Source: Aureimonas altamirensis
GTDB lineage: Bacteria > Pseudomonadota > Alphaproteobacteria > Rhizobiales > Rhizobiaceae
Length of the DNA: 64,000 nucleotides
Assembly: GCF_023702225.1 (NCBI RefSeq)
Contig: NZ_JAMQCO010000002.1
Location: 62,001 to 126,000, forward strand
Reading direction: 5' to 3'
In this document: in pieces, positions 19,335-34,677 of the stretch
Numbering within the stretch: the stretch's first letter is position 1
Layout: each line of letters starts with the position of its first letter
Notes under the pieces: model-generated
What the model was told of the DNA's origin: nothing
Seen by the model: only the letters and a program-made list of their open reading frames with translations
The model's database searches: none
Position numbers and translations under genes: made by a program

Positions 19335-19353
19335 AACCAATATCAAATTGGTT
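19335..19353. promoter_or_regulatory. Inverted repeat AACCAAT-N5-ATTGGTT, likely GntR operator
   Basis: Arms AACCAAT (19335-19341) and ATTGGTT (19347-19353) are exact inverted repeats around ATCAA. The site ends 6 bases before the regulator's ATG at 19360. It shares its core with the 28-base palindrome at 6374-6401 but has one more central base, so the two paralogous regulators may have related but distinct specificity. Confidence 0.65.
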
Positions 19354-19359
19354 TTCAAA

Positions 19360-20043
19360 ATGTACGCTTCGCTCGATCCATCCGCAGATCACGCCGCCCT
19401 TGCCCGCATGCGCGAATACCTGCTGCATGCCGAGCTTGAGGATGGAGGTCGCCTGCCCCCCGAGCGGGATCTCGCCCTGTCGCTCGGCCTCTCCCGTGGC
19501 GCCCTGCGCAAGGCGCTGGCCGACCTGGAGGCAGAAGGCGTGTTATGGCGGCATGTGGGCAAGGGTACGTTTACCGGCGCGCGGCCCATTGACGGCGCTG
19601 CGGATGTAGCCGCCATGGCAAGCCGCACCAACCCCATCGAGATCATGGGCGCGCGCCTGTCCATCGAGCCGGAGATCGCGCGGGTGGCCGCGCTGAACGC
19701 CACGCCCGCCTCTCTGGCACGCATGCGCCAGTGCACCGAACGCATGCTCACCGCGGCGGACTGGCGGCAATATGAAAGCTGGGACAACCAGTTCCATCGG
19801 ACCGTCGCCGAGGCGACCCAGAATACGCTTCTGGTCGGGCTTTTGGATACGCTCAACGCCGTGCGCCGTCAGGTGAATTGGGGCCGGCTGCGCGCCAATC
19901 CCAAAAAGCCTCCGAGCGACCACCACAGCTTTGCCGAGCACGAGGCCATCATGGCAGCCATCCACGACCGGGATACGCAGGGCGCATCCAACGCCATGCG
20001 TGTGCATCTGCAAAGTGTCGAACGCAATCTGAGAAACGCGTGA
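19360..20043 (+). CDS. GntR family regulator, FadR subfamily (FCD domain)
   Basis: Regulator of 227 residues. Winged helix (ERDLALSLGLSRGALRKALADLEAEG, wing LWRHVGKGTFTG) and FCD domain (ARLSIEPEIARVAAL, NQFHRTVAEATQNTLL, EHEAIMAAIHDRDTQGA). A TTG at 19348 would extend into the operator, so ATG 19360 is preferred. Divergent from the TauABC-like operon and similar in layout to the regulator at 6406. The stop codon overlaps the GTG of the next glycosyltransferase gene, so that gene may be co-transcribed although functionally it belongs to the following cluster. Confidence 0.92.
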   Translation: MYASLDPSADHAALARMREYLLHAELEDGGRLPPERDLALSLGLSRGALRKALADLEAEGVLWRHVGKGTFTGARPIDGAADVAAMASRTNPIEIMGARLSIEPEIARVAALNATPASLARMRQCTERMLTAADWRQYESWDNQFHRTVAEATQNTLLVGLLDTLNAVRRQVNWGRLRANPKKPPSDHHSFAEHEAIMAAIHDRDTQGASNAMRVHLQSVERNLRNA

Positions 20044-20987
20044 CGCGTTGCCCCGTCTGCCGCGCCCGCGCCATTGCGCCGACGCGGCGCCATCTGCTCG
20101 AGGCATCCGGCGGTCTGCGGCGATTTCCGCTGGTATGCGGGTCGTGCGGCCTCATGATGCACCGGCGCGAGGCGCGCCGGCTTCACGCTGCCCTTTCGGC
20201 AGCCCTTGGTGGCCGGTTCTTCACGCCGCAGGCAGATCTGGGGCTCGATATCTTCACGCTGCGCATCGCGGCATCGCGGCTCCGGCTGCTTGCGCTGCCT
20301 TGCGGACACCGCCAGCATGACGCGCTGTCTGCGCCGCATTCGCCGCTCGGAGCCCAGGCGCGCCTCGTCCCCCTGGATACTGCCCCGCGCCTGCCTCTTT
20401 CCCTTGGCATCATGTGCCGGGCCGACAGGCTGGATGCCTGCGTGGACCGGGCGCGACAGCATCTCGAATGGGCATCGGAGGCCATCATCCTGTGCGACGG
20501 GGCCGAGCGCGGTGAAACGGGAGACGGTCGTCTGCGGATCGCCTTCCGGCCGATGAACGGAGATTTCGCAGGCCAGCGCAATGCCCTTCAGGACCTCTCC
20601 ACAAGGGCATGGGTGCTGCAACTGGACGACGACGAGAGCCTGTCGCGGGAGACGGCATCGGCGCTCCCGGCCCTAGCCCGCGCGGCCGAGGCGGCGGGTG
20701 CCGTATCCATCGGGCTCGCGCGCCGCAATCTGGTAGACGGCGTCCTGTCCGACCTGTTCCCCGATACGCAATACCGCCTGAACCGGAGGGAGGTTCGCTA
20801 TCGAGGAACGGTCCACGAGCGCCCCGACCGCCCCTGGCAACTCAGCACGATCGCCCTTCATGGCGCCATCGAGCATATCCTTGATGGTGAGCGCGTCTCG
20901 CGCCGCTCCCAGCATTACGAGAGGCTTTCTCCCGGCATGGGCCGCCTGGCCGAAGCGACCGAGCTTCTGACGCCTTACCGCCCCTGA
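20040..20987 (+). CDS. Zinc-ribbon plus GT2-like glycosyltransferase domain protein
   Basis: Protein of 315 residues. The N-terminus carries two Cys pairs (CPVC near residue 3 and CGSCG near residue 37), a probable small zinc ribbon. A long linker leads to a GT2-like region with NGDFAGQRNALQDL and WVLQLDDDESLSRE (Asp-rich DxD-like motif, about residue 200), and a C-terminal RRNLVDGVLSDLFPDTQYRLNRR. The GTG start at 20040 overlaps the regulator stop; no ATG start fits. The initial nucleotide-binding strands of GT2 enzymes are poorly matched, so sugar transfer is a tentative call. The 3' end overlaps the convergent GT4 gene by 13 bases. Confidence 0.65.
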   Translation: MTRCPVCRARAIAPTRRHLLEASGGLRRFPLVCGSCGLMMHRREARRLHAALSAALGGRFFTPQADLGLDIFTLRIAASRLRLLALPCGHRQHDALSAPHSPLGAQARLVPLDTAPRLPLSLGIMCRADRLDACVDRARQHLEWASEAIILCDGAERGETGDGRLRIAFRPMNGDFAGQRNALQDLSTRAWVLQLDDDESLSRETASALPALARAAEAAGAVSIGLARRNLVDGVLSDLFPDTQYRLNRREVRYRGTVHERPDRPWQLSTIALHGAIEHILDGERVSRRSQHYERLSPGMGRLAEATELLTPYRP

Positions 20988-22150
20988 TGCCGCCTGATGG
21001 CCGCGTCGTAAAGAGCCAGCGTCTGCCGCGCCAGGGACGCCCTCGTAAAACGCCCTGCCGCCTTCAGGGCCCGTTCCCGGTGGCGGAGACGCAATTGCGC
21101 CGAGGCGATCAGGGGGCGCAGGGCAGCGGCAATGGCGTCGGCCGACGTCTCTTCAGCAAGCACTCCGCCATCGGCTACGAAATCGCGTGCGCTGGAATCC
21201 GTCGCGCTGGCCAAAATGACCCGCCCGAAGGCAAGCGCCTCCTGATAGACCAGGCCGAAACTTTCATAGCGCGATGGCGCGGCGACGATATGCGCATGCG
21301 CATATTCTTCCATCAGGCGCGCCTGCGGCTGCCGTCCGAGTGCGGTGATCCGGGCGCGGGCGGCCGGTGACAGCGCATCCGGGAGATCGGCTCCGGAAAC
21401 GCCGAGAAGACGCACGGAAAATTCCGGGCCGGATGCGTCTTCGGCCTCTCCGGCCAGCCTCTCCACCGCCTCCATCAGTTCTGCAAAGCCCTTCCGTTCT
21501 TCCGCGCGTCCGACGAACAGGATGCGCGCAGGCCCGCCCTCGTGAAACGGCGCATCGGCTGCCATGGCTAGAAACTCCGGCGGAAGGGAAAGGCCGATCA
21601 CCGCATGCGGGACACCTGCGCCGACAGCGTAATGGCTTTCCATACCGCGAGCATGTTCGGCCGAGTTGGAGACAAGACCGCTCGAACGGTTGATCTGCCG
21701 ACGCTCCAGCCGGTCGGCCGCCGCAGCGTCGAGCGTGTCGCGCGCGCCATGCGCCGTGGCCCGGGAAAAGGCGGCGGGCGTCGATATCCGCGAAACAAGC
21801 GGCGCGTCTCCGCGGCGTCCCAAGAGGGCAGCCGGCGCGTACCAGTTCGTCGCCTCCACGATATCGAAGGGCCGTTCGCCGTGCAGCGCCGCAACCTTGC
21901 GGCGGAAGGCGATGGGCGCCGCCAGGTGGCCGACGCCGCCCCACTGTCGCAGCCGTGCCAGCGACGACCCGTCGTCCATGGCGGCTCCGACCAGCCGCAC
22001 CCCGCCCTCATGCCGGGTGCCCCGCCGGTCCAACGTCACGACGGTCACGTCGCAGCCGAACTCGGCAAGGCTTTCCGCGATCTCGCGCGCGGCAGTGGAC
22101 AATCCGCTCGGCGATGGCGGATAATCCCACGCCAGAAGGCAGCAACGCAT
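20975..22150 (-). CDS. Glycosyltransferase family 4 protein
   Basis: Retaining GT-B glycosyltransferase of 391 residues. The N-terminal domain opens CCLLAWDYPPSPSGLSTAAREIAESL, with a Gly-rich acceptor loop. The donor domain has RILFVGRAEERKGFAELMEAV (about residue 220) and the E-x7-E region SRYESFGLVYQEALAFGRVILAS (about residues 290-312). Its ATG overlaps the stop of the preceding reverse-strand GT4 gene (ATGA), so the pair is translationally coupled. Donor and acceptor are unknown; the cluster suggests assembly of a glycoconjugate. Confidence 0.88.
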   Translation of the reverse strand: MRCCLLAWDYPPSPSGLSTAAREIAESLAEFGCDVTVVTLDRRGTRHEGGVRLVGAAMDDGSSLARLRQWGGVGHLAAPIAFRRKVAALHGERPFDIVEATNWYAPAALLGRRGDAPLVSRISTPAAFSRATAHGARDTLDAAAADRLERRQINRSSGLVSNSAEHARGMESHYAVGAGVPHAVIGLSLPPEFLAMAADAPFHEGGPARILFVGRAEERKGFAELMEAVERLAGEAEDASGPEFSVRLLGVSGADLPDALSPAARARITALGRQPQARLMEEYAHAHIVAAPSRYESFGLVYQEALAFGRVILASATDSSARDFVADGGVLAEETSADAIAAALRPLIASAQLRLRHRERALKAAGRFTRASLARQTLALYDAAIRRHQGR

Positions 22151-23226
22151 CAGTTTGCCCCTCCGGCCAGAAGCGAGCGGTAGAGCGCTATATAGTCGGC
22201 GGCCATGCGCTCTGACGTGAAACGCGCCTCGAAGCACCGTCGCACGGTGTTTCGGTCCAGTTCGCGAAGACGCCCTATTGCGGAGACCGCACCGGCCTCG
22301 TCCTTGACGATGAAGCCCGAAACCCCCGGCTCCACGATCTCGGGTACGGAGCCCTTGTCCCATGCGATGACCGGCGTTCCGCAGGCCATGCTTTCGATCA
22401 TCACCAGGCCGAACGGCTCCGGCCAGTCGATCGGAAACAACAGCGCGCCGGCATCCTGCAGGAGCCGCTGCTTGCCGGCATCGTCGAGCGGGCCTTCATA
22501 GATCGCGTCGGGCCCCAGCAATGGCGCAACCTCCCGCTCGAAATACAGCGGATTGCCGACATCCACCGTGCCCGCCAGCCTGATCTTCCAGCCGGCGGCG
22601 CGTGCCGCCCTGATGGCCCTGTCGGGGCGCTTCTGGTCCGTCATCCGTCCGATGAAGGCAAGATAGCCGCCCTCCCCACGCCCGGCCGCATAGCGGTCCC
22701 GGTCGAGCCCGTGGTGGACGACGCGGGTCCGGTTGGCCGGCGGCAGCATGGCATTCTGCGCCGCGGAGATGGCGGCGACCGGAAGATCCGGGAAGGATGC
22801 GAAGAACAATTCCCGGTCGAGTTCGTCGACGCGCCAGTGGATCGTGGTCACGGAATGCCGACGCCTATCGCCCAACAGAGCAGCATGAAAAAATTCGCCG
22901 TGGCAGTGGATGATGTCGAAATCATTCAGCGCGGCCCTCAGTTCTTCCATTCGAACTGCTTCCAGAACAGCCGGAATCGATGGCGGCACGGAGCCATATT
23001 TCTTTTCCAGGCTAAGCAAACTCGGTAGTTTGCCGACCTGCGACACCGGCGCCGCACTATCCGAAGGCGCAAACAGCGTTACTTCAACTCCAGCTTGTTT
23101 GAGAGAAACGCAAAGGTCACCGATCATGCGTTCCGTGCCGCCATGATCGCGGGGCGGTACCGGAAATATTCCGGGGGCGACCTGGGCAACACGGAGTGGC
23201 GATAGGGTCTTGTGCGTGCTCGTCAT
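22150..23226 (-). CDS. Glycosyltransferase family 4 protein
   Basis: GT-B glycosyltransferase of 358 residues. It begins with the family segment LRVAQVAPGIFPVPPRDHGGTERMIGDL, and the donor site holds YLAFIGRMTDQKRPDRAIRAA and PEPFGLVMIESMACGTPVIAWDKGSVPEIV, with the E-x7-E pair. The motif set resembles GT4 enzymes acting on small or lipid acceptors. An AAGGAG directly upstream decides for ATG 23226 over an earlier ATG at 23265. Only 31 bases separate this start from the divergent sucrose-phosphate-synthase-like gene. Confidence 0.88.
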   Translation of the reverse strand: MTSTHKTLSPLRVAQVAPGIFPVPPRDHGGTERMIGDLCVSLKQAGVEVTLFAPSDSAAPVSQVGKLPSLLSLEKKYGSVPPSIPAVLEAVRMEELRAALNDFDIIHCHGEFFHAALLGDRRRHSVTTIHWRVDELDRELFFASFPDLPVAAISAAQNAMLPPANRTRVVHHGLDRDRYAAGRGEGGYLAFIGRMTDQKRPDRAIRAARAAGWKIRLAGTVDVGNPLYFEREVAPLLGPDAIYEGPLDDAGKQRLLQDAGALLFPIDWPEPFGLVMIESMACGTPVIAWDKGSVPEIVEPGVSGFIVKDEAGAVSAIGRLRELDRNTVRRCFEARFTSERMAADYIALYRSLLAGGAN

Positions 23227-23257
23227 GCGCACTCCTTGTTTGCCCGAGGGAGCGGGT

Positions 23258-25324
23258 ATGTTCATCTTGCACGTCGCACTTCAAGGGTGTCTCAAGGGGC
23301 ATGGAGTGGAATACGGGCTGACGGCGGATACGGGTGGCCATATCCGCTACCTTCTCGAACTGGTCGAAGCGTCCGCAGAGCGCCATCGGGGCCACCGGCA
23401 CGTCATCGCCACGCGTCGGTTTGCCGGTGTCGGGCCGGAATACGAGATCGCCGACGAGGTATGCCGGCCGGGCGTCCGCATCCTGCGTCTGCCGACGCGC
23501 AACCCCTTCTATGTCTCCAAGGAAGAGATGCACGAAGAGGTCGAAAGCTTCGCCGAGGGCCTGGTGGCATGGATCGAGGCAAACCGACGGCCCGACATCA
23601 TCCATGCGCACTACGCCGATGCCGGGCGGGCGGCTTCCATCGTCCGGAAACGGCTGGGCATCCCCTTTTTGTTCACCGCGCACTCCCTGGGACGGGTGAA
23701 GCAGGCTGCCTTCGAGGCGCTCGATGCGCCGCTGCCCGGCATGGCCGAGCGGATCGAGGCGGAGGAAACCGCCCTGCGCGATGCCTCCCTGCTGATCGCC
23801 TCCTCGCGCGATGAGGCCGAGGTGCAATACGCCATGTACCGGGGGTACGAACCCGGACGGATTCGCATCCTGCCGCCGGGCAGCAACCTTGCGGCCTTCC
23901 GGGATGCCGTCCCGACACCCTGCGTCGAAGCGGAGATGGCGCGCTTCCTGTCCGATCCGTCGAAGCCCTGCCTGCTCGCCATCGCCCGTCCGGTGCGGCG
24001 CAAGAACCTGTCGACGCTTGTCGAGGCCTTCGGGCGCTGCGCGGAATTGCGCAGGCGGGCCAACCTCATCATCGTGGCGGGCACCCGTACCGACCTTGCT
24101 CATTGCGATGCGGAGACCTCGGGCGTGTTGTCCGAGATCCTGCACCTGATCGACACTTACGATCTCTACGGGCAGGTGGCCTATCCCAAGCATCATGCGC
24201 CGCAGGACATACCGTCCTATTACGCCTATGCCGCAAGCCGGCGCGGCATCTTCGTGAACCCGGCGCTGAACGAGCCGTTCGGCCTGACCCTTCTGGAAGC
24301 CTCGACCGCCGGCCTGCCCATCATCGCCACGGACAGCGGTGGCCCGAACGACATCGTGGAAACCTGCGGCAACGGCATGCTGGTCGACCCGCGCGATGCG
24401 GACGGCATCGCCCGCGCCGCGCTGGCGATCCTGTCGGACGAGGCGTGCTGGCGCCGCTACGCCCGGGCCGGTTCGTCGGCCGCCGACGCCTATGACTGGA
24501 ACAGGCATGTCACGCGATATGATGGCCTTATCCGATCCATCATCCGCCCGGCCGGGCCGCATCCACGCCCCACGAGCCTGCTCGTATCCGACATAGACAA
24601 CACGCTGGTCGGCTGCGGCGATGGCCTGCTGGCCTTCCGGGACTGGCAATGTCGCCAGCCGGGCCTTGCCTTCGGCGTGGCGACAGGGCGCTCCTTCCAC
24701 AGCGCGATGGCGATCATCGAGCAGGAGGATGCACCCCGCCCGCAGGTGATGATCACCTCGGTGGGCTCCGAGATCTACCATCTGGCATCCGACGGTGTCA
24801 GCTACAGGGCGGACACCGTATGGAGGCGTAAGGTGCGTCGCGGGTGGCGGCGCGACGCGACCATCCGCGCGCTCGAAGGGATCGCAGGGCTGACTGCGCA
24901 GGCGCCGCTGGAGCAACGCCCGTTCAAGCTGTCCTATTTCTCGGACGGGCGGCCCGATACGGTGGCTGCCGTGCGGCGCCGGCTGGAGGCGGCCGGCATT
25001 TCAGCCTCCGTCGTCCACAGCCACGGACGCTATCTCGACGTGCTGCCCCATGGCGTCTCGAAGGGCTCGGCCGTGGAGTTCGTCCGCACCGGATACAGGC
25101 TTCCCGTCAATTCGGTCTATGTCGCCGGCGACAGCGGAAACGACATCGACATGCTGGGCATCATGCCCCAGTCGATCATCGTCGCCAATTATTCCGACGA
25201 CCTTGCCGGCCTGCCGGCATTGGCCCATGCCTATGTGGCGCGGGGCACGCATGCACGCGGCATCATCGAGGGCGTCGCGCATTTCCGGTCCACTGGGAGG
25301 GTCGGGTGGAAGCCAGCGTCCTGA
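23258..25324 (+). CDS. Sucrose-phosphate-synthase-like glycosyltransferase fused to HAD phosphatase domain
   Basis: Protein of 688 residues with two domains. Residues 1 to about 435 are a GT4/GT-B enzyme of the sucrose-phosphate synthase group: the N-terminal HVALQGCLKGHGVEYG and ADTGGHIRYLLELVEAS fit SPS and mannosylfructose-phosphate synthase, and the donor site reads NPALNEPFGLTLLEASTAGLP. Residues from about 440 are a HAD-IIB phosphatase domain (SDIDNTLVG with nucleophile Asp, ATGRS, and GDSGNDIDML), as in sucrose-phosphate phosphatase. It could make and dephosphorylate a disaccharide phosphate. Whether the product is sucrose, mannosylfructose or something else is not deducible. Start chosen by GAGGGAGCGGG upstream. 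Confidence 0.88.
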   Translation: MFILHVALQGCLKGHGVEYGLTADTGGHIRYLLELVEASAERHRGHRHVIATRRFAGVGPEYEIADEVCRPGVRILRLPTRNPFYVSKEEMHEEVESFAEGLVAWIEANRRPDIIHAHYADAGRAASIVRKRLGIPFLFTAHSLGRVKQAAFEALDAPLPGMAERIEAEETALRDASLLIASSRDEAEVQYAMYRGYEPGRIRILPPGSNLAAFRDAVPTPCVEAEMARFLSDPSKPCLLAIARPVRRKNLSTLVEAFGRCAELRRRANLIIVAGTRTDLAHCDAETSGVLSEILHLIDTYDLYGQVAYPKHHAPQDIPSYYAYAASRRGIFVNPALNEPFGLTLLEASTAGLPIIATDSGGPNDIVETCGNGMLVDPRDADGIARAALAILSDEACWRRYARAGSSAADAYDWNRHVTRYDGLIRSIIRPAGPHPRPTSLLVSDIDNTLVGCGDGLLAFRDWQCRQPGLAFGVATGRSFHSAMAIIEQEDAPRPQVMITSVGSEIYHLASDGVSYRADTVWRRKVRRGWRRDATIRALEGIAGLTAQAPLEQRPFKLSYFSDGRPDTVAAVRRRLEAAGISASVVHSHGRYLDVLPHGVSKGSAVEFVRTGYRLPVNSVYVAGDSGNDIDMLGIMPQSIIVANYSDDLAGLPALAHAYVARGTHARGIIEGVAHFRSTGRVGWKPAS

Positions 25325-26172
25325 CACTCGTTCGCGGCCGAGAGGCCAGCCTGGGCAACCTCATGGCCGGCCTGGCCGCGCAGACCGCGCCTGCGAAGGA
25401 GCTCGTCATCGCCTACATGCAGCCGGAGCCCTTTGCCGACCTGCCCTCTCCCGGCTGTCCGGTGCGAAACCTTTTCATATCGGGCGACCCGATGCCGCTG
25501 GCAATGGCACGGAACGCTGCGGCCCGCGCCGCGCGCAGCGAGTTGCTGATCTTCCTGGATGTGGATTGCATAGCCTCTCCTGGTCTCGTCGCCTCTTATC
25601 TTGCAGCCGCGGAACGGAGCGCCGACGGCGTCTTCCTGGGCGAAGTCCTGTATCTTCCGGAGGGCGCCGTGGATGGCGCCCTCGATTACGGAAAGCTCGA
25701 CCGCCTCGGCCATCGCCACCCCGCAAAGCCCCGCATGCCGGATGACGGGGTTCGGCACGAGCCGGATCATGGCGAGCTGTGGGGTCTTTCCTTCGCCATG
25801 CGGCGCACATGCTGGGACCGGCTCGGCGGCATGGACGAGAGCTTCGTCGGCTATGGCGGAGAGGAAACGGACTTCGCGCTGAGACTCGGGGCGGCGGGCA
25901 TACCGCTGTTCTGGACGGCCCATGCGCGGGCCTACCACCAGCATCACGCGGTCCATGTCCCGCCGCTCCAGCAGTTCGACCATATCCTGCGCAATGCCCG
26001 ATTGTTCCACGCCCGGCACGGGCGCTGGTGCATGGATTACTGGCTCGGCCAGTTCCGGGACGCCGGCTATATCGACTGGCGACCGGAAGACGGCGTCATC
26101 GGCATCCGGCGCCGTCCTACCCCTTCGGAAATCGAAGCCGCGCGCCAGCCCGGCAGCGTCCTGTACTCTTGA
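25306..26172 (+). CDS. Glycosyltransferase family 2-like protein
   Basis: GT-A glycosyltransferase of 288 residues. ASVLTLVRGREASLGNLMAGL is the first strand/helix, LLIFLDVDCIASP (about residue 80) is the DxD motif, and GGMDESFVGYGGEETDFALRL (about residue 180) is the galactosyltransferase-like acceptor region with the catalytic Glu-Glu-Thr-Asp pattern. GTG 25306 follows GGGAGG at 25295-25300 and overlaps the upstream gene by 19 bases. It belongs to the forward operon 23258-29763. Confidence 0.85.
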   Translation: MEASVLTLVRGREASLGNLMAGLAAQTAPAKELVIAYMQPEPFADLPSPGCPVRNLFISGDPMPLAMARNAAARAARSELLIFLDVDCIASPGLVASYLAAAERSADGVFLGEVLYLPEGAVDGALDYGKLDRLGHRHPAKPRMPDDGVRHEPDHGELWGLSFAMRRTCWDRLGGMDESFVGYGGEETDFALRLGAAGIPLFWTAHARAYHQHHAVHVPPLQQFDHILRNARLFHARHGRWCMDYWLGQFRDAGYIDWRPEDGVIGIRRRPTPSEIEAARQPGSVLYS

Positions 26173-26189
26173 TCACATCGGAGACCGTC

Positions 26190-27341
26190 ATGAAGCGGCC
26201 CATATCATTCTTCGTGCACCACCAGGGGCGCGGACACGCCAGCCGCACGATGGCCTTGGTGGACAGGATGGCGGCGGACCGTCCCGTTTCCGTGCTGACT
26301 GCGGGGCCGCATCTGTTCGACGGATTCTCCCGCGATATCGAAATCGTACCCCTGCCCGACATGATCGGCGCAACCGTGCCGACGCCGCGCCTCTTCGCCG
26401 AGCAGACGCCCAGCGTCATGCACTGCGTGCCCCTCGGGCTGGCGGAAATGCGGCGGACAATGCGCATCATCCTCGATCATCTCGACGCCCGCGAGGTCGG
26501 GCTTTTCGTCGTGGACGTTTCGGCCGAGATCGCCCTTCTGTCCCGCATCGCAAGCGTCCCCTGCGTGCAGATCCGCATGCATGGCAACCGCTCGGACATC
26601 GCGCATATGGGCTCCTACGAAGCCTCGGTCGGCATGCTTGCGCCCTTCGACGAACGTCTGGAGCAGGCGGACTATCCCGCCGCCCTTCGTGCGCGCACCT
26701 GCTACACGGGCGGCCTGTGCACGACCCGGGCAGACAAGCCCCAGCGCGAGGATGCCCGACGGCGCCTGGGGTTGGATCCCGACCGGGAGATCATCCTGGC
26801 GCTCACGGGCGGGGGTGGCGCCGGAACGCCCTATGCCGCGCTGACGGTCGGCGCGCGCGCCGCGCCCGACGCGCTCTGGATCGCCATCGGACCGACGCTG
26901 GAGGAAGGCCACGAAACGGACTTCGCCAATCTGGTAAAGCTCGGCTGGGTGGACAACGTGCCGGATTACCTTGCGGCCGCCGACATCGTCATCGCATCGG
27001 CCGGAGACAATACGATCCACGAGGTTGCCCGCGCATCGGGAAAGCTGATCGTCATGCCGGAATGGCGCTACTTCTCGGAGCAGCATCGCAAGGCCGACGC
27101 GCTGGTCGCCATCGGGGCGGCCGTCACCGCACCACAGTGGCCGGGAGATTTTCCGGCATGGCTGGCGCTGCTGGACGCGGCACGCCGCCTGGACGGCTCC
27201 GTGCTCGCCTCGCTGCACGATCCCGACGCCGCAGGGCGCGGCGCACGGTGGCTCGAAGCGCTGACGGATGCGCTCTGGGAGGCCGCGCCGCAGCCCGTCC
27301 CTGCTGCCGCGCCGACGCCCTTGCCGGTCCGCGCGGCATGA
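26190..27341 (+). CDS. GT-B glycosyltransferase, GT28/MurG-like
   Basis: Protein of 383 residues that begins RPISFFVHHQGRGHASRTMAL, the nucleotide-sugar glycosyltransferase opening with Gly-x-Gly-His. The C-terminal donor domain has IILALTGGGGAGTPY (about residue 200), the segment LGWVDNVPDYLAAADIVIASAGDNTIHEVA (about residues 250-279) and GKLIVMPEWRYFSEQHRKADAL. This matches UDP-sugar-dependent GT28-type enzymes. The last 4 bases overlap the acyl-CoA-dehydrogenase-like gene (ATGA). Confidence 0.8.
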   Translation: MKRPISFFVHHQGRGHASRTMALVDRMAADRPVSVLTAGPHLFDGFSRDIEIVPLPDMIGATVPTPRLFAEQTPSVMHCVPLGLAEMRRTMRIILDHLDAREVGLFVVDVSAEIALLSRIASVPCVQIRMHGNRSDIAHMGSYEASVGMLAPFDERLEQADYPAALRARTCYTGGLCTTRADKPQREDARRRLGLDPDREIILALTGGGGAGTPYAALTVGARAAPDALWIAIGPTLEEGHETDFANLVKLGWVDNVPDYLAAADIVIASAGDNTIHEVARASGKLIVMPEWRYFSEQHRKADALVAIGAAVTAPQWPGDFPAWLALLDAARRLDGSVLASLHDPDAAGRGARWLEALTDALWEAAPQPVPAAAPTPLPVRAA

Positions 27342-28453
27342 AGCCGGGGACCGCGCAGAAGAGAGCGGCTTCCACCACGCTCGCCGACACCGCACGCGCC
27401 CTGTCCGCGCGGCTATCGGCCGATCCGGACGCCACGGCCGAAAGCCTTGTCGGCATATTGGCGAAGCAAGGGCTTCTGGCGGCCGGGATCGTGCCGACCG
27501 GCTCGGGAAAAGGCGGCTTCGCCTTCCATATGCCCTGGCAGGCGCTTGCGGACATATTGGAGGGCATCGGCGCCGTGGATCTCAGCCTCGCGCGGCTGCT
27601 GGAAGGCCATGTCAACGTCCTCCAGCTCGTGCACCTCTACGGTTCCCCCACCCAGCAGGAGCATGTGGCCGATCTTGCGCTGTCCGGCGAGTTGCTGGGC
27701 ATCTGGGGCGCCGACGACGCTCCGCCGGTAACGCTCGTCTGTGAAGGCGCGATCTGGCGGATGAGCGGCGCCAAACGCTACGCGTCGGGCGTCGGGGTCG
27801 TCCATACCGCGCTGGTTCCGGTGTTTACCGGCCCGGCGCCCCTCCTGCCCCTGGTCGAGGTCCGCCAGCCCGAGCGCATGGATCTGTCCGGCTGGGACCA
27901 TGGGGGCATGGCGCGGTCGCTGTCCGGGCGCTACTCCTTCGACGGAACAAGCCTTACGGGTGACGATCTTGTCGGCAATCCGGGCGATTACCGGCGCGAG
28001 CCCCATTTCGTCGGCGGCATATGGCGATGCGCAGCGGCCCAGGTGGGGGCCATCAAGGCCATCGTCACCATCATGCGCGATACGCTGGCGGAACGGGGGC
28101 ACGATGCCCACCCGCTCCAGAAGCAGCGGCTCGGCCGCGCCGCCATTCAGGCCCGCACCGCGCGACTGTGGGTGCACGACGCGGCCGGGCGGGTGGAGGC
28201 TGCCGCCTCGTCCAAAGATGCCGAAGCGATCAGGGAGGCGACCGCCCTTGCCGCCTACGCGCGCCTCGTCACCGAAGAGGCGGGGCTGGCCGTCATCGAG
28301 ACGGCGCAAAAGGCGATCGGCCTGTCCGGCTTTCACCGCGCGCATCCGCTGTCCATCCGCGCGGCAGACCTGGCGGTCTATCTGCGGCAAGCCAACCCCG
28401 ACGCCGTCCTGCTGGAACATGCGGCCGCCGTCAGCGAAAGCCTCGACGCATGA
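27338..28453 (+). CDS. Acyl-CoA dehydrogenase family protein, divergent
   Basis: Protein of 371 residues with the helical-sheet-helical order of acyl-CoA dehydrogenases. Residues near 75-90 read GAVDLSLARLLEGHVNVLQLV, the flavin-adjacent segment is WRMSGAKRYASGVGVV (about residue 140), and the C-terminal helices include GLAVIETAQKAIGLSGFHRAHPLSIRAADL. The usual FALTEP motif is replaced by LGIWGADD, and the catalytic Glu is not obvious, so the activity may differ from beta-oxidation. It overlaps its neighbours by 4 bases on both sides, so it belongs firmly to the glycosyltransferase/PIG-L operon. Confidence 0.8.
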   Translation: MKPGTAQKRAASTTLADTARALSARLSADPDATAESLVGILAKQGLLAAGIVPTGSGKGGFAFHMPWQALADILEGIGAVDLSLARLLEGHVNVLQLVHLYGSPTQQEHVADLALSGELLGIWGADDAPPVTLVCEGAIWRMSGAKRYASGVGVVHTALVPVFTGPAPLLPLVEVRQPERMDLSGWDHGGMARSLSGRYSFDGTSLTGDDLVGNPGDYRREPHFVGGIWRCAAAQVGAIKAIVTIMRDTLAERGHDAHPLQKQRLGRAAIQARTARLWVHDAAGRVEAAASSKDAEAIREATALAAYARLVTEEAGLAVIETAQKAIGLSGFHRAHPLSIRAADLAVYLRQANPDAVLLEHAAAVSESLDA

Positions 28454-29763
28454 ACGGGCCGTTCGGCACATGGACGGACCGGGCCGAAACTGCGCCGGTG
28501 GCGGATGTCGGCCTTTTGGTGGGCGACGGCAGCCTGATGGTGATCGCCCCCCACCCGGATGACGAGTCCATCGCCTGCTCGGCCCTTCTGCTGGATGCCG
28601 CCCGGCAGAATCGGGCGCTCGTCATCGTGGCGCTGACGGATGGCGATGCCTCGCATCCGGGGTCGGTGGCGGTGCCTCCCCCGCAGTTGGCACGGATCCG
28701 CACACACGAGCAGATGGCCGCCGTGGAAGCTTTAGGCTGTTCCCACGCCCAATGGCTGCGCCTCGGCCTTCCCGATGGGGCCAGCCGCTGGCATCCGGGG
28801 CGCCTCGCCGCCGTCGACGCCCTTGCGGAAAAATGCCGCCAGCTCGGCGTCACCGCCGTCGTGGCGCCGCATCCGGACGACCCGCACCCGGACCACCACG
28901 CGGCGGCGGAACTTGCCCTGGATCTGCGGGCGGAGCTGCCGCAGCTTCGTATCCTCTTTTACGAAGTCTGGACGTGCCGTCTGGCGCGCGATGCTCCGTT
29001 CCGCCAGGACGACCTGACGCCCTTCCGCGTCGCCACGGACAGGGAAGCGAAGCGGCGCGCCATCGCCTGCCACGCCAGCCAGCTCGGGCATGTCGTTCCG
29101 GATGCCGCCAGGGGCTTTACCCTGCCGGAATGGTTCCTGGCGCTTCACGATAGCGAATTCGAGCGCCTGTCATGGCTGCACATGCCCGGCGAGGCGCCCG
29201 CCGCTTCGCATTTCGATGTCATCTACAAAAGAAGTCCGGATCCATGGGACGTACGCACGTCCCCCTACGAACTCGGAAAGCGGGATGCCGCCCGCGCGCT
29301 CCTAGGCGATGCGCGTTTCGATCATGCGCTCGAGGCCGGCTGCGGAGAGGGTTGCCTTGCCGGCGACCTGCTGCTGCACGGGCAGGCCCGGCGCGCGACG
29401 GGTATCGACCAGGCGGAGGAGATCGTCGAGCGGGCCCGCAAGTCCGCCCCGGAGGGGCTTCGCCTCGTTCGCGGGCGGCTGCCCGACGATCTTCCGGAGG
29501 GCCCCTACGATCTCGTGATCTTTTCGGAGTTGCTCTACTACCTTCCGGAAAGGGATCTTGAGCGTCTGGCCGCCCTGACACGGATGCAGATGGTGCCGGG
29601 GGCCGCAATGCTGATCGTGTCCTATCTGGGCGATACCGAAACCCCGCTCGACGCCAGGGCCGGTGCGGATTTCTTCATCGCGCTGTTCGGGCCGGAGCTC
29701 CAGCCCGTCTCGCGCCGGAGCGCGGAACGGTTCCGGATCGATCTGTTGCGATGGCGTCCCTGA
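28450..29763 (+). CDS. Bifunctional PIG-L deacetylase / SAM-dependent methyltransferase
   Basis: Protein of 437 residues. The N-terminal PIG-L (LmbE) domain has the zinc motif APHPDDES at about residues 33-40 and a second motif PHPDDPHPDHHAA near residue 138, which is typical for N-acetylglucosaminyl deacetylases such as MshB. From about residue 255 a NodS-like class I methyltransferase follows (RSPDPWDVRTSPYELGKRDA; motif I HALEAGCGEGCLAG near residue 291; YDLVIFSELLYYL). Together they could deacetylate an amino sugar and methylate the product (inference). The 3' end overlaps the convergent GT2 gene by 89 bases. Confidence 0.88.
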   Translation: MNGPFGTWTDRAETAPVADVGLLVGDGSLMVIAPHPDDESIACSALLLDAARQNRALVIVALTDGDASHPGSVAVPPPQLARIRTHEQMAAVEALGCSHAQWLRLGLPDGASRWHPGRLAAVDALAEKCRQLGVTAVVAPHPDDPHPDHHAAAELALDLRAELPQLRILFYEVWTCRLARDAPFRQDDLTPFRVATDREAKRRAIACHASQLGHVVPDAARGFTLPEWFLALHDSEFERLSWLHMPGEAPAASHFDVIYKRSPDPWDVRTSPYELGKRDAARALLGDARFDHALEAGCGEGCLAGDLLLHGQARRATGIDQAEEIVERARKSAPEGLRLVRGRLPDDLPEGPYDLVIFSELLYYLPERDLERLAALTRMQMVPGAAMLIVSYLGDTETPLDARAGADFFIALFGPELQPVSRRSAERFRIDLLRWRP

Positions 29764-30862
29764 TCGCCAGCAGACCGGGCAGATGGCGGGCAAGGTCGGA
29801 TAGGCGCAGGGGCCAACGCGCCAGGACAGGGCTCATGTCTTCGGCCGTGTGAAACGCACAGCGGCCGCCCTGCTCGGCCAGTTCGTCCAGCCTGTCGCCT
29901 TCGACGCCGACATCGGCAAGAACGGACCGGCGCGTCTCGATATCGTCGGCTGCCAGGAAGTCGCGGAGCGCGCAGTTCCGTCGCACCAGCGTTTCCGGCA
30001 CTTCCAGCAACTCGTCGACGATCGGGTCCGCCTCGGTCCGGCTGCGCTGCAATTCGTCGGCAAGGCCGCCACGCGCCCGGCCGTCTAGCCGGGGCGATGT
30101 CGCCACGCGCGCGGTATCCACATAAAGGACGCGGAGCCCCAGGCCCAGGACGCTGCGCCGCAGGGCGCGATCTTCCCCGGACGGTGGTGTCGGCAATCCG
30201 CCGACCGCACCATAGGCCCTGCCGGTGATGGCAAAATTGGCCCCGCCGATATTGCCATGATGCGGCCAGGAATTGTCACGGTCGGGAAACAGCATCTCCG
30301 CGACCTCCCGCGAGACTGCCCTGTACTCCCGCAACAGATATTCGCCGGCAGGGTCGGCCTGCGGCAGAAGCGCGGCTTCCTCGGCCAGGAAGTCGATGGC
30401 GCCGCAGACGAGGTCGCCACCCCGCGCAAAGGCTGCCCTGTACGCACCGGCCAGGCCTTTGCCCGCGATCGTATCGCCATCCGTCGACAGAAGCAGGGCC
30501 TCGGGGTTCAGGGCATGGGCGATGTCCATCGCCAGGCGGCGGGCACGCGGCGCGCTGCCCTGCCCCGAGCGCCAATCGCATCGAAGCAGCAGCCACGGGC
30601 GCGTCCAACCCTGCATGACATCCAGTGCCGCCGGCGCCGTCGCATCGCGGCAGCCGTTGGCCACCAGGACCACCCCGTCGTCATCGTCCAGCGCCTCATT
30701 CAGGGCCACGAGGCAGCGACGGATCAGGCGTTCTTCATCGCAGGCCGGTATGCAGGCGCACAGGCCGGGCTGCTTTGGCCATGCGCCGTCGATGGCCGGC
30801 GGACCCTCTATCGGGAACGCGCCCGCAACGGTTTCGACGGTCCGATGCGCTTCCTTGTCCAT
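29675..30862 (-). CDS. Glycosyltransferase family 2 protein
   Basis: GT-A glycosyltransferase of 395 residues with CACIPACDEERLIRRCLVAL at about residues 34-53 (nucleotide-sugar strand), GVVLVANGCRDAT, LLLSTDGDTIAGKG (DxD, about residue 125) and GGANFAITGRAYGAVGGLPT (about residue 200). This is typical of GT2 enzymes with a long helical C-terminal tail. It is convergent with the PIG-L/methyltransferase gene, and its last 30 codons are antisense to that gene. It probably works in the same pathway, in a separate transcription unit. Confidence 0.87.
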   Translation of the reverse strand: MDKEAHRTVETVAGAFPIEGPPAIDGAWPKQPGLCACIPACDEERLIRRCLVALNEALDDDDGVVLVANGCRDATAPAALDVMQGWTRPWLLLRCDWRSGQGSAPRARRLAMDIAHALNPEALLLSTDGDTIAGKGLAGAYRAAFARGGDLVCGAIDFLAEEAALLPQADPAGEYLLREYRAVSREVAEMLFPDRDNSWPHHGNIGGANFAITGRAYGAVGGLPTPPSGEDRALRRSVLGLGLRVLYVDTARVATSPRLDGRARGGLADELQRSRTEADPIVDELLEVPETLVRRNCALRDFLAADDIETRRSVLADVGVEGDRLDELAEQGGRCAFHTAEDMSPVLARWPLRLSDLARHLPGLLAIRDAIATDRSGTVPRSGARRAGAPARTAR

Positions 30863-30964
30863 AATCCCTTCAATTCACCGGACGCCGCCGCGTTCCGCTG
30901 GACACTGACGGAACGGATGCTTAAGAAACCTGATTTCAGTGTTCAAGTTTCCGTGTCAGTTGCG

Positions 30965-31882
30965 ATGCACGATCCTGCAAGCCCTTTTTCCCCGTCCGCT
31001 GCGTTCCTTCACAGGCGCGCGGTCCTGGCCTTTGCCGGCGCTGCCCTGTCCGGTCTAGCCCTCGCGCCTGCGGCGCGTGCACAGACTGCGCGGCGGATCG
31101 TCTCTCTGGATTACGGGCTGGCGGAAACGCTGATTACGCTTGGCCTGCCGCCGGTCGGCCTTGCCGACGTGCCGGGCTGGGCCGAATGGGTGGTGGAGCC
31201 GCCTTTGCCGGCCCGCACGGTGGATGTCGGAGCCAATCTGGATCCCAATCTGGAAGTCGTATCGGCGCTGCGGCCGGACCTGATCCTGACCAGCGACTAC
31301 ACATCGGCGGCAGAGCCGATCCTGTCCCGGATCGCACCGGTGGAGCGCATCTCGATCTATGCTCCGGGCCTCGTTCCGTTCGACGAATCCGTAACCGCAA
31401 CGCGCCGTCTGGGACGCCTGACAGGCCTGGAAGCGCGTGCCGAGGCCTTCCTTGCCGATACGCAGGCCTTCTTCGATGCAACGCGCATCGCCTGTGCGCA
31501 ATTCGCGGACACGCCACTTCTGGTTGTATCGTTGATGGATGAGCGTCATGTGCGCGTCTATGCGCCCGTCGGTCTTCTCGATTCGGTCATGAAACGGCTC
31601 GGCCTCACCAATGCCTGGCAGGCTGATGGCGGCTACTGGGGGTTCGAGACGGTCGGCATCGAGCGTCTTTCGGAGGTGGGGGACGCGCAGCTCTTGCTGA
31701 TCGAGCCGGTACAGCCGGATGCATGGACGCGCCTGTCGCAATCTCCCCTGTGGCAGGCATTGCCGGCGGTGCGCCGGCGGCAGGTACGCCGCCTGCCCTC
31801 CGTCCTGATGTTCGGCAGCCTCGTCGCGGCACGTCGCTTCGCCGGGTCGCTGCGCGTCGCACTGGAAAGCCCCGCCTCGTGA
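30965..31882 (+). CDS. Iron-siderophore ABC transporter substrate-binding protein, FhuD-like
   Basis: Periplasmic binding protein of 305 residues. A twin-Arg-like signal, HRRAVLAFAGAALSGLALAP, ends near AARAQ (about residue 40). The mature protein opens RRIVSLDYGLAETLITLGLPPVGLADV, as in FhuD-type class III binding proteins, and has the single long helix linking two lobes. Start ATG 30965 is a choice: no good ribosome binding site is seen and upstream in-frame starts exist. The stop overlaps the GTG of the permease. Hydroxamate siderophore uptake is the likely role. Confidence 0.85.
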   Translation: MHDPASPFSPSAAFLHRRAVLAFAGAALSGLALAPAARAQTARRIVSLDYGLAETLITLGLPPVGLADVPGWAEWVVEPPLPARTVDVGANLDPNLEVVSALRPDLILTSDYTSAAEPILSRIAPVERISIYAPGLVPFDESVTATRRLGRLTGLEARAEAFLADTQAFFDATRIACAQFADTPLLVVSLMDERHVRVYAPVGLLDSVMKRLGLTNAWQADGGYWGFETVGIERLSEVGDAQLLLIEPVQPDAWTRLSQSPLWQALPAVRRRQVRRLPSVLMFGSLVAARRFAGSLRVALESPAS

Positions 31883-33858
31883 AGCTGGCCATATCATCGA
31901 GTGCGCCGCGCCTTGCGCTCGGCCTTCTCGGCATCGCCGCGCTGCTGGCTGCAGCCCTGTTTGCCGGCAACGTGCAGGAGTTGTTCCGCCCGACGCAAGG
32001 CTATGACGTCGACAGGCTCGTCTTCCTGTACGCAACGCTTCCGCGCCTGGGCCTGGCGCTTCTGGCGGGGGCCGGCCTCGGCGCATCCGGCGCCATCCTG
32101 CAGATGGCCCTGCGCAATCCGCTGGCCTCGCCCACCACGGTCGGCATCGACGGGGGAGCGCGGTTGGCCATCGCCGTGGCGCTGCTGTTCATGCCGGGCC
32201 TGCTCGGCTGGGGGCGCGACATCGCCGCCCTCGCCGGCTCGCTCCTTGCCATGCTGCTCGTCCTCGTCCTGACCCGCCGGCAGGGTTTCTCGCCGGTGCC
32301 GCTGGTACTGGCCGGCCTGATGGTCAGCCTTCTGTGCGCCGCCATGTCCGGCGTGCTGCAACTGACGCACCAACGCTATCTGGAAGGTCTTTTCATCTGG
32401 GGCGCCGGGTCGTTGAGCGCGCAAGGCTGGGCGCCGGTCGGCGCACTCGGCCTGCGCCTGGCGCTGGCCTTCGCGATCCTCATGCCGCTGATGCGGCCGC
32501 TGAGGCTTATCGAACTCGGCAGCGACAGCGCGCGCGGCCTGGGGCTGAAAGTGGCGCAATGGCGCATGGCGGCAATCTTCGCCGGCATCCTTCCGGCGGC
32601 ATTGGTTACCAGCGCGGTGGGCGTGTTCGGTTTCATCGGCCTGATCGCGCCTTTGCTTGCCACCGCTTCGGGCGCGACGACACCCTTGAAGCGGCTGATC
32701 TGGTCTGCCGTCACCGGCGCCGGGCTGCTGCTCCTTACGGATCTTTGCGTTCAGTGGGCCGCGGGAGCCTATGCGGCCTTCGTACCGACAGGCGCGGTCA
32801 CCGCCATACTGGGCTCGCCATTGCTGCTCTGGCTGCTGCCACGGCTGTCCATCGGACAGCGCGTGCCGCCCGGCATGGCGGCCGGGGCGCGCCCAAACCC
32901 CGCACGCCTCGGCCTGCCTGCACTCGGGCTCGCCGTTCTGGTTTTGCTGGTGGTGACGCTTATGGTCGGGCGCGTACCCGGCGGCGCCTTCGCCGTCGCC
33001 ATGCCGGAGCAGTGGGCGGACCTTGCGCAATGGCGGATCCCGCGCACCGTCGCCGCCTTCGTCGCAGGGGCGCTTCTTGGCATCGCTGGCCTGATCCTGC
33101 AGCGCGTCAGCGGCAACGAGATGGCCAGCCCCGAAATTCTGGGCATCGGCGCCGGCGCGCTGCTGGGCATGGCGGCGATACTGCTTCTTGCGGGAGCATC
33201 CGGAGGGATCGGGGCCACCGGCGCGGGGCTTCTGGGCGGTCTGTTCACCATCCTGATCGTGCTCGGCTTCAGCAGGCGCTCCGGCTTCGCGCCGGACCGC
33301 GTTCTCCTGTCGGGTATAGCCATCACCGCACTGGCCGATGCCTTCATCGGCGTGCTTACCGCCAGCGGCGATCCACGCGGCTTCCAGCTTCTTCGCCTGG
33401 TCGGCGGATCGGCCTCGGCCGCTACATGGCCGTTGGTGCTGCAGATGGCAGGCGCGCTGGCGATCATCGCCGCCGCCACCGCCGCCTGTCTTCGCTGGCT
33501 CGCCATGCTGCCTCTCGGTCAGGCAACCAGCCTTTCCCTGGGCGTGCCGCTTCGCCCGGCCCGCCTGTCGCTTCTGGCGCTCGCCGCATTGGCAGCCGCC
33601 ATTGCCGTCCCCGTTGCCGGTACGGTCAGCTTCGTCGGGTTGATGGCGCCGCATCTGGCACTCCGGTTTGGCAAGGGGGGGCATGCGCCCGGCCCGATGC
33701 TGCTGCGCGCGGCCCTTGCGGGTGGCCTCGTCATGGTGGTCGCCGATTGGGTCGCGCGGCTCGCCGCATTTCCGTTCCAGCTACCCACGGGCCTCGTCGC
33801 CTGCCTTGTCGGCGGGCCGTTCCTTCTGGTCCTTCTACAGAAACGCAGCCGAACGTAA
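31879..33858 (+). CDS. Iron-siderophore ABC transporter permease, FhuB-like (duplicated)
   Basis: Permease of 659 residues, twice the length of a BtuC/FepD permease. Two homologous halves each contain the family motif: LGASGAILQMALRNPLASPTTVGIDGGA (first half) and LGIAGLILQRVSGNEMASPEILGIGAGA (second half). The coupling loops VFGFIGLIAPLL and VSFVGLMAPHLALR also recur. About 18-20 helices are expected. The start is GTG at 31879, overlapping the FhuD-like stop (GTGA). No FhuC-like ATPase gene follows: the next gene is a GntR regulator, so an ATPase must come from elsewhere. Confidence 0.9.
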   Translation: MKLAISSSAPRLALGLLGIAALLAAALFAGNVQELFRPTQGYDVDRLVFLYATLPRLGLALLAGAGLGASGAILQMALRNPLASPTTVGIDGGARLAIAVALLFMPGLLGWGRDIAALAGSLLAMLLVLVLTRRQGFSPVPLVLAGLMVSLLCAAMSGVLQLTHQRYLEGLFIWGAGSLSAQGWAPVGALGLRLALAFAILMPLMRPLRLIELGSDSARGLGLKVAQWRMAAIFAGILPAALVTSAVGVFGFIGLIAPLLATASGATTPLKRLIWSAVTGAGLLLLTDLCVQWAAGAYAAFVPTGAVTAILGSPLLLWLLPRLSIGQRVPPGMAAGARPNPARLGLPALGLAVLVLLVVTLMVGRVPGGAFAVAMPEQWADLAQWRIPRTVAAFVAGALLGIAGLILQRVSGNEMASPEILGIGAGALLGMAAILLLAGASGGIGATGAGLLGGLFTILIVLGFSRRSGFAPDRVLLSGIAITALADAFIGVLTASGDPRGFQLLRLVGGSASAATWPLVLQMAGALAIIAAATAACLRWLAMLPLGQATSLSLGVPLRPARLSLLALAALAAAIAVPVAGTVSFVGLMAPHLALRFGKGGHAPGPMLLRAALAGGLVMVVADWVARLAAFPFQLPTGLVACLVGGPFLLVLLQKRSRT

Positions 33859-33902
33859 CTGCTGCGTTCGCACCCGCACAAAAATCGGGCTTGCCCAGAG
33901 AA

Positions 33903-33931
33903 TTGACAGACGCCGCCAGATTGGCAAGATG
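33903..33931 (+). promoter_or_regulatory. Candidate promoter of the third FadR-type regulator operon
   Basis: TTGACA (33903-33908) is a perfect -35. The -10 is weak (CAAGAT at 33925-33930, 16-base spacer). The start point would fall next to the partly symmetric site at 33933-33957. Confidence 0.35.
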
Positions 33932-33932
33932 T

Positions 33933-33957
33933 CAGACCAATTCTATCAGTCTGGTTT
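33933..33957. promoter_or_regulatory. Imperfect inverted repeat, possible operator of the third FadR-type regulator
   Basis: CAGAC (33933-33937) and GTCTG (33949-33953) are inverted copies. The region also holds ACCAATT (33936-33942) and CTGGTTT (33951-33957), which loosely resemble the ACCAAT/ATTGGT sites at 6374 and 19335. It lies 10 bases before the regulator start. Symmetry is much weaker than in the other two sites. Confidence 0.4.
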
Positions 33958-33966
33958 CTAGCGCCG

Positions 33967-34677
33967 ATGCAGCAGGGGCTTGCCCGCCTACCGACACATG
34001 ACAGGCTGCGCGACGTCCTCGCCGCGCTGGCCGACTATGTCGACCGTGCCGGGCTGAAGGCATCGGACAAGCTGCCGGCAGAGCGGGAGTTGATGTCGGC
34101 GCTGGGCGTCGGGCGCTCTACGATCCGCGAGGCCATCCGCCAGTGGCAGGCGCTCGGCATCGTGGAGACCCGCAAGGGCAGCGGCTCCTATCTTCTGCGC
34201 ACCGTCAATGCGACCACCGTCCACATGCCGCTTTCCATCGACGGTTCGGAGTTGCGCAACGCGCTTCTCCAGACGCTGGAGGTGCGCCGCGCACTGGAAG
34301 TGGAGGCATCGGCGCTCGCTGCCCTGCGCGCCACGCCACAAGACCTGGCGGTCATGGAGGACCGGCTCGCGGAGGTGGAGCGAAAGCACATCGCGCGCGG
34401 TGGCCAGGGCGCCGGCGCGGAAGACCTTCTTTTCCACCTCTCCATCTACGACGCCGCCCACAACCCGTTGTTCGGCCAATTGCTGGAGCAGATGCGCCAG
34501 ACCTTCGAAAGCTTCTTCGCCGAACCCTTCGACAGGCCCGACTTCGCACGCCGCTCCTTTCCCTTCCACCGCGAGCTGTTCCACGCCATCGCGGCCCGCG
34601 ATCCGGAAACGGCACGCCGCAAGACAATCGCAATCCTCGACATCGTCGAGGAAGACATCAAGGACATGTCGACATGA
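33967..34677 (+). CDS. GntR family regulator, FadR subfamily (FCD domain)
   Basis: Regulator of 236 residues. The winged helix-turn-helix is DKLPAERELMSALGVGRSTI with wing IVETRKGSGSYLL (about residues 65-78). The FCD domain has LEVRRALEVEASALAALRATP, DLLFHLSIYDAAHNPLF and FPFHRELFHAIAARDPETA. The gene overlaps the PLP-enzyme gene by 4 bases and so heads a regulator-enzyme-importer operon running to about 41290. Confidence 0.92.
   Translation: MQQGLARLPTHDRLRDVLAALADYVDRAGLKASDKLPAERELMSALGVGRSTIREAIRQWQALGIVETRKGSGSYLLRTVNATTVHMPLSIDGSELRNALLQTLEVRRALEVEASALAALRATPQDLAVMEDRLAEVERKHIARGGQGAGAEDLLFHLSIYDAAHNPLFGQLLEQMRQTFESFFAEPFDRPDFARRSFPFHRELFHAIAARDPETARRKTIAILDIVEEDIKDMST

Follow-up and report, generated by a model that had tools for sequence, protein, structure and literature searches.

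A cluster of nine genes, g1 to g9, is found in a 64,000-nucleotide stretch of the Aureimonas altamirensis genome (contig NZ_JAMQCO010000002.1); this whole stretch is termed the window. The cluster, at 20040..30862, combines two modules. Module A comprises genes for a sucrose-phosphate synthase (SPS)-like protein and for glycosyltransferases of the GT28, GT2 and GT4 families. Module B comprises genes for an acyl-CoA dehydrogenase (ACAD)-like protein, a PIG-L deacetylase, a NodS-like methyltransferase and a GT2 glycosyltransferase. It is proposed, with about even confidence, that the two modules form one pathway, whose product would be a small oligosaccharide with a modified amino sugar, located in the cytosol and probably non-reducing. 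The proposal is based on the co-occurrence of g1, g4, g6 and g7, on merged operons, on the fusion or adjacency of PIG-L and methyltransferase genes, and on the intact PIG-L and phosphatase motifs. It is also based on the solubility of the proteins, a g7 profile nearest to heteroatom monooxygenases, an excess of stress genes near module B over control stretches, and the co-regulation with otsA and otsB reported for Acinetobacter baumannii in the portions of one paper drawn on here (PMC5660220).

In module A, g4 would transfer a sugar from its nucleotide donor onto a phosphosugar, whose phosphate the phosphatase domain of g4 would then strip. The g3, g2, g6, g5 and perhaps g1 proteins would extend this core. 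In module B, an amino sugar in N-acetylated form would be attached by g9 and then deacetylated by the PIG-L half of g8; the NodS-like half would methylate at or near the freed amine, and g7 would oxidise the product. The substrates and the order of steps are predictions, as is the choice of N- over O-methylation.

Domains were assigned by Pfam and NCBIfam searches of the nine proteins with curated cut-offs. A preliminary description of the cluster, made from the DNA letters, had counted seven glycosyltransferase-like proteins. By their domain matches, five of these are clear glycosyltransferases (g2 to g6) and g9 is a likely one, its PF00535 score being slightly below the GT2 cut-off; the assignment of g1 is unproven. 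The g1 protein has no Pfam match at E 0.01 and a single weak NCBIfam match, to a SunS-type GT2 (E 6e-4), and its Cys4 ribbon (C4, C7, C33 and C36) and a DxDE stretch are invariant among 12 homologues. None of the nine proteins displays a convincing membrane segment; the top 19-residue hydropathy mean is 1.68 (g6), compared with 2.63 for a neighbouring permease. As had been noted earlier, no polymerase, flippase or export family is matched by the nine proteins in Pfam or NCBIfam. Since a membrane-type protein is also lacking, a small soluble product is favoured over a capsule.

The g4 protein had been described as an SPS-HAD fusion. A GT4 domain and an S6PP/HAD phosphatase domain are both present (S6PP, 194 bits in Pfam), and the SPS label is doubtful. 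The synthase domain scores 432.3 bits against TIGR02472, below the cut-off of 576, and the phosphatase domain 189.2 bits against TIGR02471, below the cut-off of 209.75. At the acceptor loop all 33 module A g4 proteins (24 from relatives and nine more distant) display DTGGH, where the solved enzyme 2r60 has GGQ. This glutamine of SPS is, we presume, the residue that contacts fructose 6-phosphate. It is present in all six outside homologues from the g4 search, as DTGGQ in five and DTGAQ in one. The 33 module A proteins cluster together (support 99/99) in a tree of 39 rows, with two long-branched outside rows close to the base of this group. Loci L059 and L114, described below, are placed among Aureimonas in the tree, at weak to fair support. 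The HAD phosphatase motifs DIDNT and GDSGND are retained and align with those of 1s2o; because they are intact, a phosphosugar acceptor is still likely. The name sucrose-phosphate synthase is rejected for g4 on account of the missed cut-offs, the DTGGH sequence and the separate clade; the chemical analogy is not rejected.

The first half of g8 matches PF02585 (85.7 bits, cut-off 28.2), the PIG-L family, for which we take LmbE to be the older name. The zinc-site motifs HPDDE and HxDH are intact, and residues H35, D37, D38, E39, H146, D148 and H149 are invariant among 22 homologues. The second half scores 31.1 bits against PF05401, above the cut-off of 24, and 39.2 of 300 bits against the NodS equivalog NF041650. 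A PADLOC scan of the nine proteins for phage defence returned one match, mads_2, over this methyltransferase half (7e-11). PIG-L and methyltransferase are a single protein in 19 of 101 genomes, a sample consisting of the window's own and 100 relatives. Elsewhere, and also in six genomes of the window's own genus, they are encoded by separate genes, mostly adjacent ones. Fusion or adjacency suggests that the two enzymes act consecutively on one substrate. The earlier proposal of deacetylation followed by methylation is thus supported by the PIG-L motifs and by the fused NodS-like domain; methylation at nitrogen is predicted from the NodS family relation only.

The g7 protein, termed ACAD-like in the preliminary description, has the ACAD fold but misses both ACAD gathering scores in Pfam (19.4 of 22.4 and 17.2 of 22.9 bits). 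No glutamate is present within residues 340-358, the catalytic region, in any of 25 homologues, the base column being assigned by sequence alignment; nor could the alternative base that isovaleryl-CoA-type enzymes use be located. The best scores of the g7 profile are with the monooxygenases DszC (4e-21) and MsuC (1e-20), ahead of dehydrogenases; sugar nitrososynthases follow at 8e-12 to 2e-10. The window protein itself is below the NCBIfam cut-offs for SfnB (43 of 430.9 bits) and DszC (19.2 of 850 bits). The acyl-CoA dehydrogenase name is probably misleading. Lipid modification, which had been suggested, is not supported. The sole 'lipid' candidate is g7, with its missing glutamate and monooxygenase-like profile, and the nine proteins have no Pfam or NCBIfam match to acyltransferase, acyl carrier or CoA ligase families.

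In a tentative alternative, which we regard as less likely, the glycosyltransferases use a lipid acceptor and decorate a glycolipid or lipopolysaccharide core at the inner membrane face, with deacetylation and methylation of its head group. MurG, a member of GT28, uses a lipid-linked acceptor, and g6 is in this family with a weak MurG match in NCBIfam; moreover, peripheral glycosyltransferases need no membrane segment. However, no family of acyltransferases, lipid carrier enzymes or flippases is matched by the nine proteins in Pfam or NCBIfam, and in other bacteria module B adjoins genes of soluble trehalose synthesis.

Recurrence of the genes together, which the preliminary description had put forward for checking, is observed both among relatives and across the phylum. 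Among the 101 genomes g6 is detected in 24 at E <1e-170, and in 36 at E up to 1e-3. These 24 are also the genomes with g4 (E up to 1e-136) and with g1 (E up to 1e-8), and all of them carry g7 (E up to 1e-33), which is matched in 11 more genomes at E up to 1e-8. The distance between g6 and g7 is at most 15 kb in 14 of these genomes; the remaining ten have the two genes farther apart or on separate contigs. In genome G014, a PIG-L-methyltransferase gene directly follows g6 and g7 is solitary on another contig, and in G011 g6 is separate from both g1-g5 and g7-g9. Block order and orientation differ between genera and membership is largely retained, which points to selection on the gene set.

The phylum sample consisted of 398 genomes drawn evenly, with at most four candidates scored per genome, so that misses are possible. 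Here, at E up to 1e-15, the g6 profile has matches in 17 genomes and the g7 profile in 37. Of the latter, 30 (E up to 1e-19) were counted; the seven weaker matches, perhaps other members of the ACAD superfamily, were dropped. Both genes are present in 15 of the 17 g6 genomes, against 1.3 expected (hypergeometric P 3e-17, shared ancestry ignored), and these 15 are spread over ten families. Broken copies are found as well. Genome G040 has a second GT28 copy with four in-frame stops (contig 1, 1893-2462) beside an intact copy elsewhere in the genome. A Jiella pelagia plasmid (L052, 3408-13357) carries the whole cluster with g2, g4, g6 and g8 fragmented relative to the window, which reflects either real decay or sequencing errors.

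Gene content of loci was determined by tblastn and profiles. The notion of a single cluster holds in that the genes are co-conserved, but the two modules are separable. Module A alone, with SPS-like, GT28, GT2 and GT4 genes, is found on plasmids of Roseomonas, Paracoccus and Sphingomonas. In L059, a Methylobacterium aquaticum plasmid, and L114, from a genome of family f42, g1-g6 are oriented as in the window and are followed by further GT2 and GT4 genes. The g6 proteins of these two loci are 75% identical to that of the window despite the different family, and horizontal transfer is possible. In a Sphingomonas parapaucimobilis plasmid (L145, 11124-12931), genes for a polysaccharide pyruvyl transferase and a further glycosyltransferase come after module A.

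Module B alone, usually with its GT2 gene, is found on plasmids of Sulfitobacter, Roseomonas, Deinococcus, Acinetobacter, Bradyrhizobium, Pandoraea and Komagataeibacter. In the Deinococcus wulumuqiensis plasmid (L057, 6116-9848), the ACAD-like protein is annotated within a 790-residue fusion and a TnpB gene is between the ACAD-like and PIG-L genes. Outside the fused-g8 group, 31 chromosomal module B loci were collected. Seven belong to the relatives and the other 24 to the phylum sample, in which 30 g7 genomes had been counted; G000, G040 and G093 among these were already covered and three others were left out. By profile, PIG-L is present in 27 of the 31 (it was not found in L113, L115, L121 and L131) and a g9-like GT2 in 25.

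In other families, genes of both modules are merged into one operon. Seven genes on one strand, in the order GT4-GT2-GT28-ACAD-PIG-L-methyltransferase-GT2, are found in L049, L132 and L141 (a Sphingobium plasmid), with variants in L133 and in L111/L112. In L131, SPS-like, GT28, GT2, methyltransferase and ACAD genes are on a single strand. Because the seven-gene form is without the SPS-like gene, the common core probably comprises GT4, two GT2, GT28, ACAD, PIG-L and methyltransferase, all of which are in the window.

These arrangements also bear on the possibility that modules A and B are two unrelated pathways, side by side, that make different sugars. Each module is also found alone, and they are unlinked in 10 of the 24 genomes. 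Such a reading is nevertheless unlikely, given the 15/17 co-occurrence in the phylum sample, the retention of both modules by the unlinked genomes of the group, and the independent merged operons (L049, L132, L141 and L131).

The neighbours of module B suggest a role in stress. Trehalose genes are found near it in several loci: otsA and otsB in L058, L144, L118 and L127, otsA alone in L119, treY and glgX in L116, and these two plus malQ in L124 and L126. In the last two loci a second PIG-L-like gene is located beyond the module B GT2. An HPII-like catalase gene is nearby in L053, L131, L132, L133 and L144, and ku/ligD in L116, L133 and L142. The names GlgX, TreY, MalQ and LigD come from NCBIfam matches above cut-off, that of the L133 catalase from one below it. 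With these markers (trehalose, catalase and end-joining), which were picked post hoc, 9 of the 31 chromosomal module B loci are positive, compared with 1 of 40 control stretches of 18 kb taken at round coordinates of g7-carrying genomes. With the three marker-supplying loci excluded, the comparison is 6/28 with 1/40 (P 0.017). Among plasmid module B loci, 4 of 9 have at least one marker.

Co-regulation of an operon with similar annotations is described in A. baumannii. Genes ACICU_02432-02435, listed as one operon with glycosyltransferase, SAM-methyltransferase, LmbE and ACAD-related annotations, show 31- to 62-fold lower expression in two mutants dependent on colistin, alongside otsA, otsB and catalase, and the paper counts 33 down-regulated genes in that transcriptome (PMC5660220, Table 2). 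Four genes with matching annotations flank blsA in another Acinetobacter strain, according to a passage of a second paper (PMC6240043). By their names and order, both sets of genes would be module B.

No stress marker was found in the 15 loci of the window's family, Aurantimonadaceae, or in the 10 module-A-only loci. A scan of the window for EcfG-type general-stress promoters gave one match against 1.6 expected, away from the cluster; across 59 loci there were 30 matches (raw counts), six of which precede a module gene by no more than 400 bases. A stress role would thus belong to module B elsewhere, and for the window it is only a suggestion.

A more general hypothesis, which we consider improbable, is that module B is a cassette for deacetylation, N-methylation and N-oxidation. 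PIG-L would free the amine of a hexosamine on a non-reducing sugar, namely trehalose in Acinetobacter-type loci and, in the window, the sugar made by the SPS-like enzyme. Methylation of the nitrogen by the NodS-like enzyme would follow, and g7, as a relative of sugar nitrososynthases, would hydroxylate it. Such a cassette would yield an N-hydroxy-N-methyl amino-sugar glycoside, which Proteobacteria and Deinococcus would make as a redox-active solute when under osmotic or oxidative stress.

The combination of deacetylation and N-methylation is the logic of NodB-NodS, and a relative of bacillithiol, mycothiol or Nod factor, that is, a low-molecular-weight thiol or a lipo-oligosaccharide signal, was considered; weak matches of g2-g4 to MshA and BshA models and of g8 to BshB and NodS models point this way. 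It is very improbable, as scores reach at most 53.1 of 273.7 bits for BshA, 58.3 of 182.5 for BshB1 and at most 117.3 of 462.5 for MshA, no cysteine ligase, NodA or NodC family is found among the nine proteins in Pfam or NCBIfam, and g7 has no counterpart in those pathways; with the equivalog cut-offs unreached, all three are rejected. Exopolysaccharide or capsule synthesis, to which the many glycosyltransferases and weak EpsD and EpsE model matches might point, is just as hard to credit, as the nine include no polymerase, flippase, exporter or membrane-type protein.

The nine adjacent genes are as the preliminary description had placed them, and the open reading frames match (Table 1). In A. 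altamirensis DSM 21988 (L031), the nearest named relative found, the nine are present with identical order and strand and with 77-94% protein identity, which indicates that they are real genes. The packing had been described as tight, mostly with 4-base overlaps, and this is slightly overstated: 4-base overlaps are found at g6/g7 and g7/g8, g4 and g5 overlap by 19 bases (assuming that g5 starts at GTG 25306), and g5 and g6 are 17 bases apart, or overlap by 4 bases if g6 starts at TTG 26169. For g3, the start at 23226 is more likely than that at 23265 because AAGGAG sits just upstream; the divergent g3 and g4 are then separated by 31 bases. The convergent pairs g1/g2 and g8/g9 overlap at their 3′ ends. 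GT4 genes related to g3 are also present in short and merged forms of the cluster.

Table 1. Genes of the cluster, with positions in the window and predicted products
Gene	Positions	Strand	Predicted product	Module and remarks
g1	20040..20987	+	Cys4 zinc-ribbon and GT2-like (unproven)	Module A, long form
g2	20975..22150	-	GT4 glycosyltransferase	Module A, long form; PF00534 79 bits; adjoins g3 in module A loci of the group
g3	22150..23226	-	GT4, divergent from g4	PF00534 68 bits; reading frame open to 23265
g4	23258..25324	+	SPS-like GT4 fused to S6PP/HAD-IIB phosphatase	
g5	25306..26172	+	GT2, 'galactosyltransferase-related' type	PF10111 and PF02709 above cut-off
g6	26190..27341	+	GT28/MurG-like	PF04101 27.5 bits (cut-off 22)
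g7	27338..28453	+	Acyl-CoA-dehydrogenase-fold flavoenzyme without catalytic Glu	Module B
g8	28450..29763	+	PIG-L deacetylase fused to NodS-like methyltransferase	Module B
g9	29675..30862	-	GT2 (likely), convergent with g8	Module B; PF00535 22.5 bits (cut-off 23.3)

A GntR/FCD regulator gene (19348-20043) shares 4 bases with the start of g1; only the two nearest relatives retain it, at 96-97%. Upstream there is a nitrate/taurine-type ABC transporter. On the other side, genes for an iron-type periplasmic binding protein and a FecCD permease (30842-33858) start immediately beside g9. The 2-kb block 32001-34000 displays the strongest AT skew of the window (-0.284). A sigma-70 scan gave 2 sites against 1.3 expected and a terminator scan 11 against 6.7 expected.

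No published description of the cluster was found in open PubMed Central papers; those passages of PMC8084333, PMC9657202, PMC13130816, PMC10375965 and PMC11348943 that matched the search terms do not describe it. The parts belong to known families, of which two (g4 and g7) are probably misnamed. The module B cassette spans Alpha-, Beta- and Gammaproteobacteria and Deinococcus, on chromosomes and plasmids, and is apparently co-regulated with trehalose synthesis in Acinetobacter. Identification of its product would make a sugar pathway directly testable, would explain an 'acyl-CoA dehydrogenase' family without the dehydrogenase base, and would correct the sucrose-phosphate synthase and acyl-CoA dehydrogenase names in databases.

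Four known systems invite comparison. The A. baumannii operon ACICU_02432-02435 has the same annotations as module B in one operon, the identity being based on names and order; the portions of the paper drawn on here mention no module A gene and assign no function (PMC5660220).

As in the NodB-NodS step of Nod factor synthesis, g8 would pair deacetylation of an N-acetylated sugar with a methyltransferase of the NodS family. However, its deacetylase is PIG-L rather than NodB, NodA and NodC are lacking, and the NodS cut-off is not reached. Bacterial fusions of SPS and sucrose-phosphatase (TIGR02472, TIGR02471; 2r60, 1s2o) differ from g4, which is below both equivalog cut-offs, has DTGGH in place of GGQ, forms its own clade and is located inside a glycosyltransferase cluster; g4 likewise consists of GT4 and S6PP, with equal domain order and phosphatase motifs. 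The g7 protein is only 16-21% identical to DszC, TdsC, MsuC, KijD3, the 3mxl enzyme and DnmZ, displays invariant motifs of its own (RQ near the C-terminus and E-x-H) and has no known flavin reductase partner beside it, but it has the same fold as these monooxygenases and nitrososynthases and, like them, is without the dehydrogenase glutamate.

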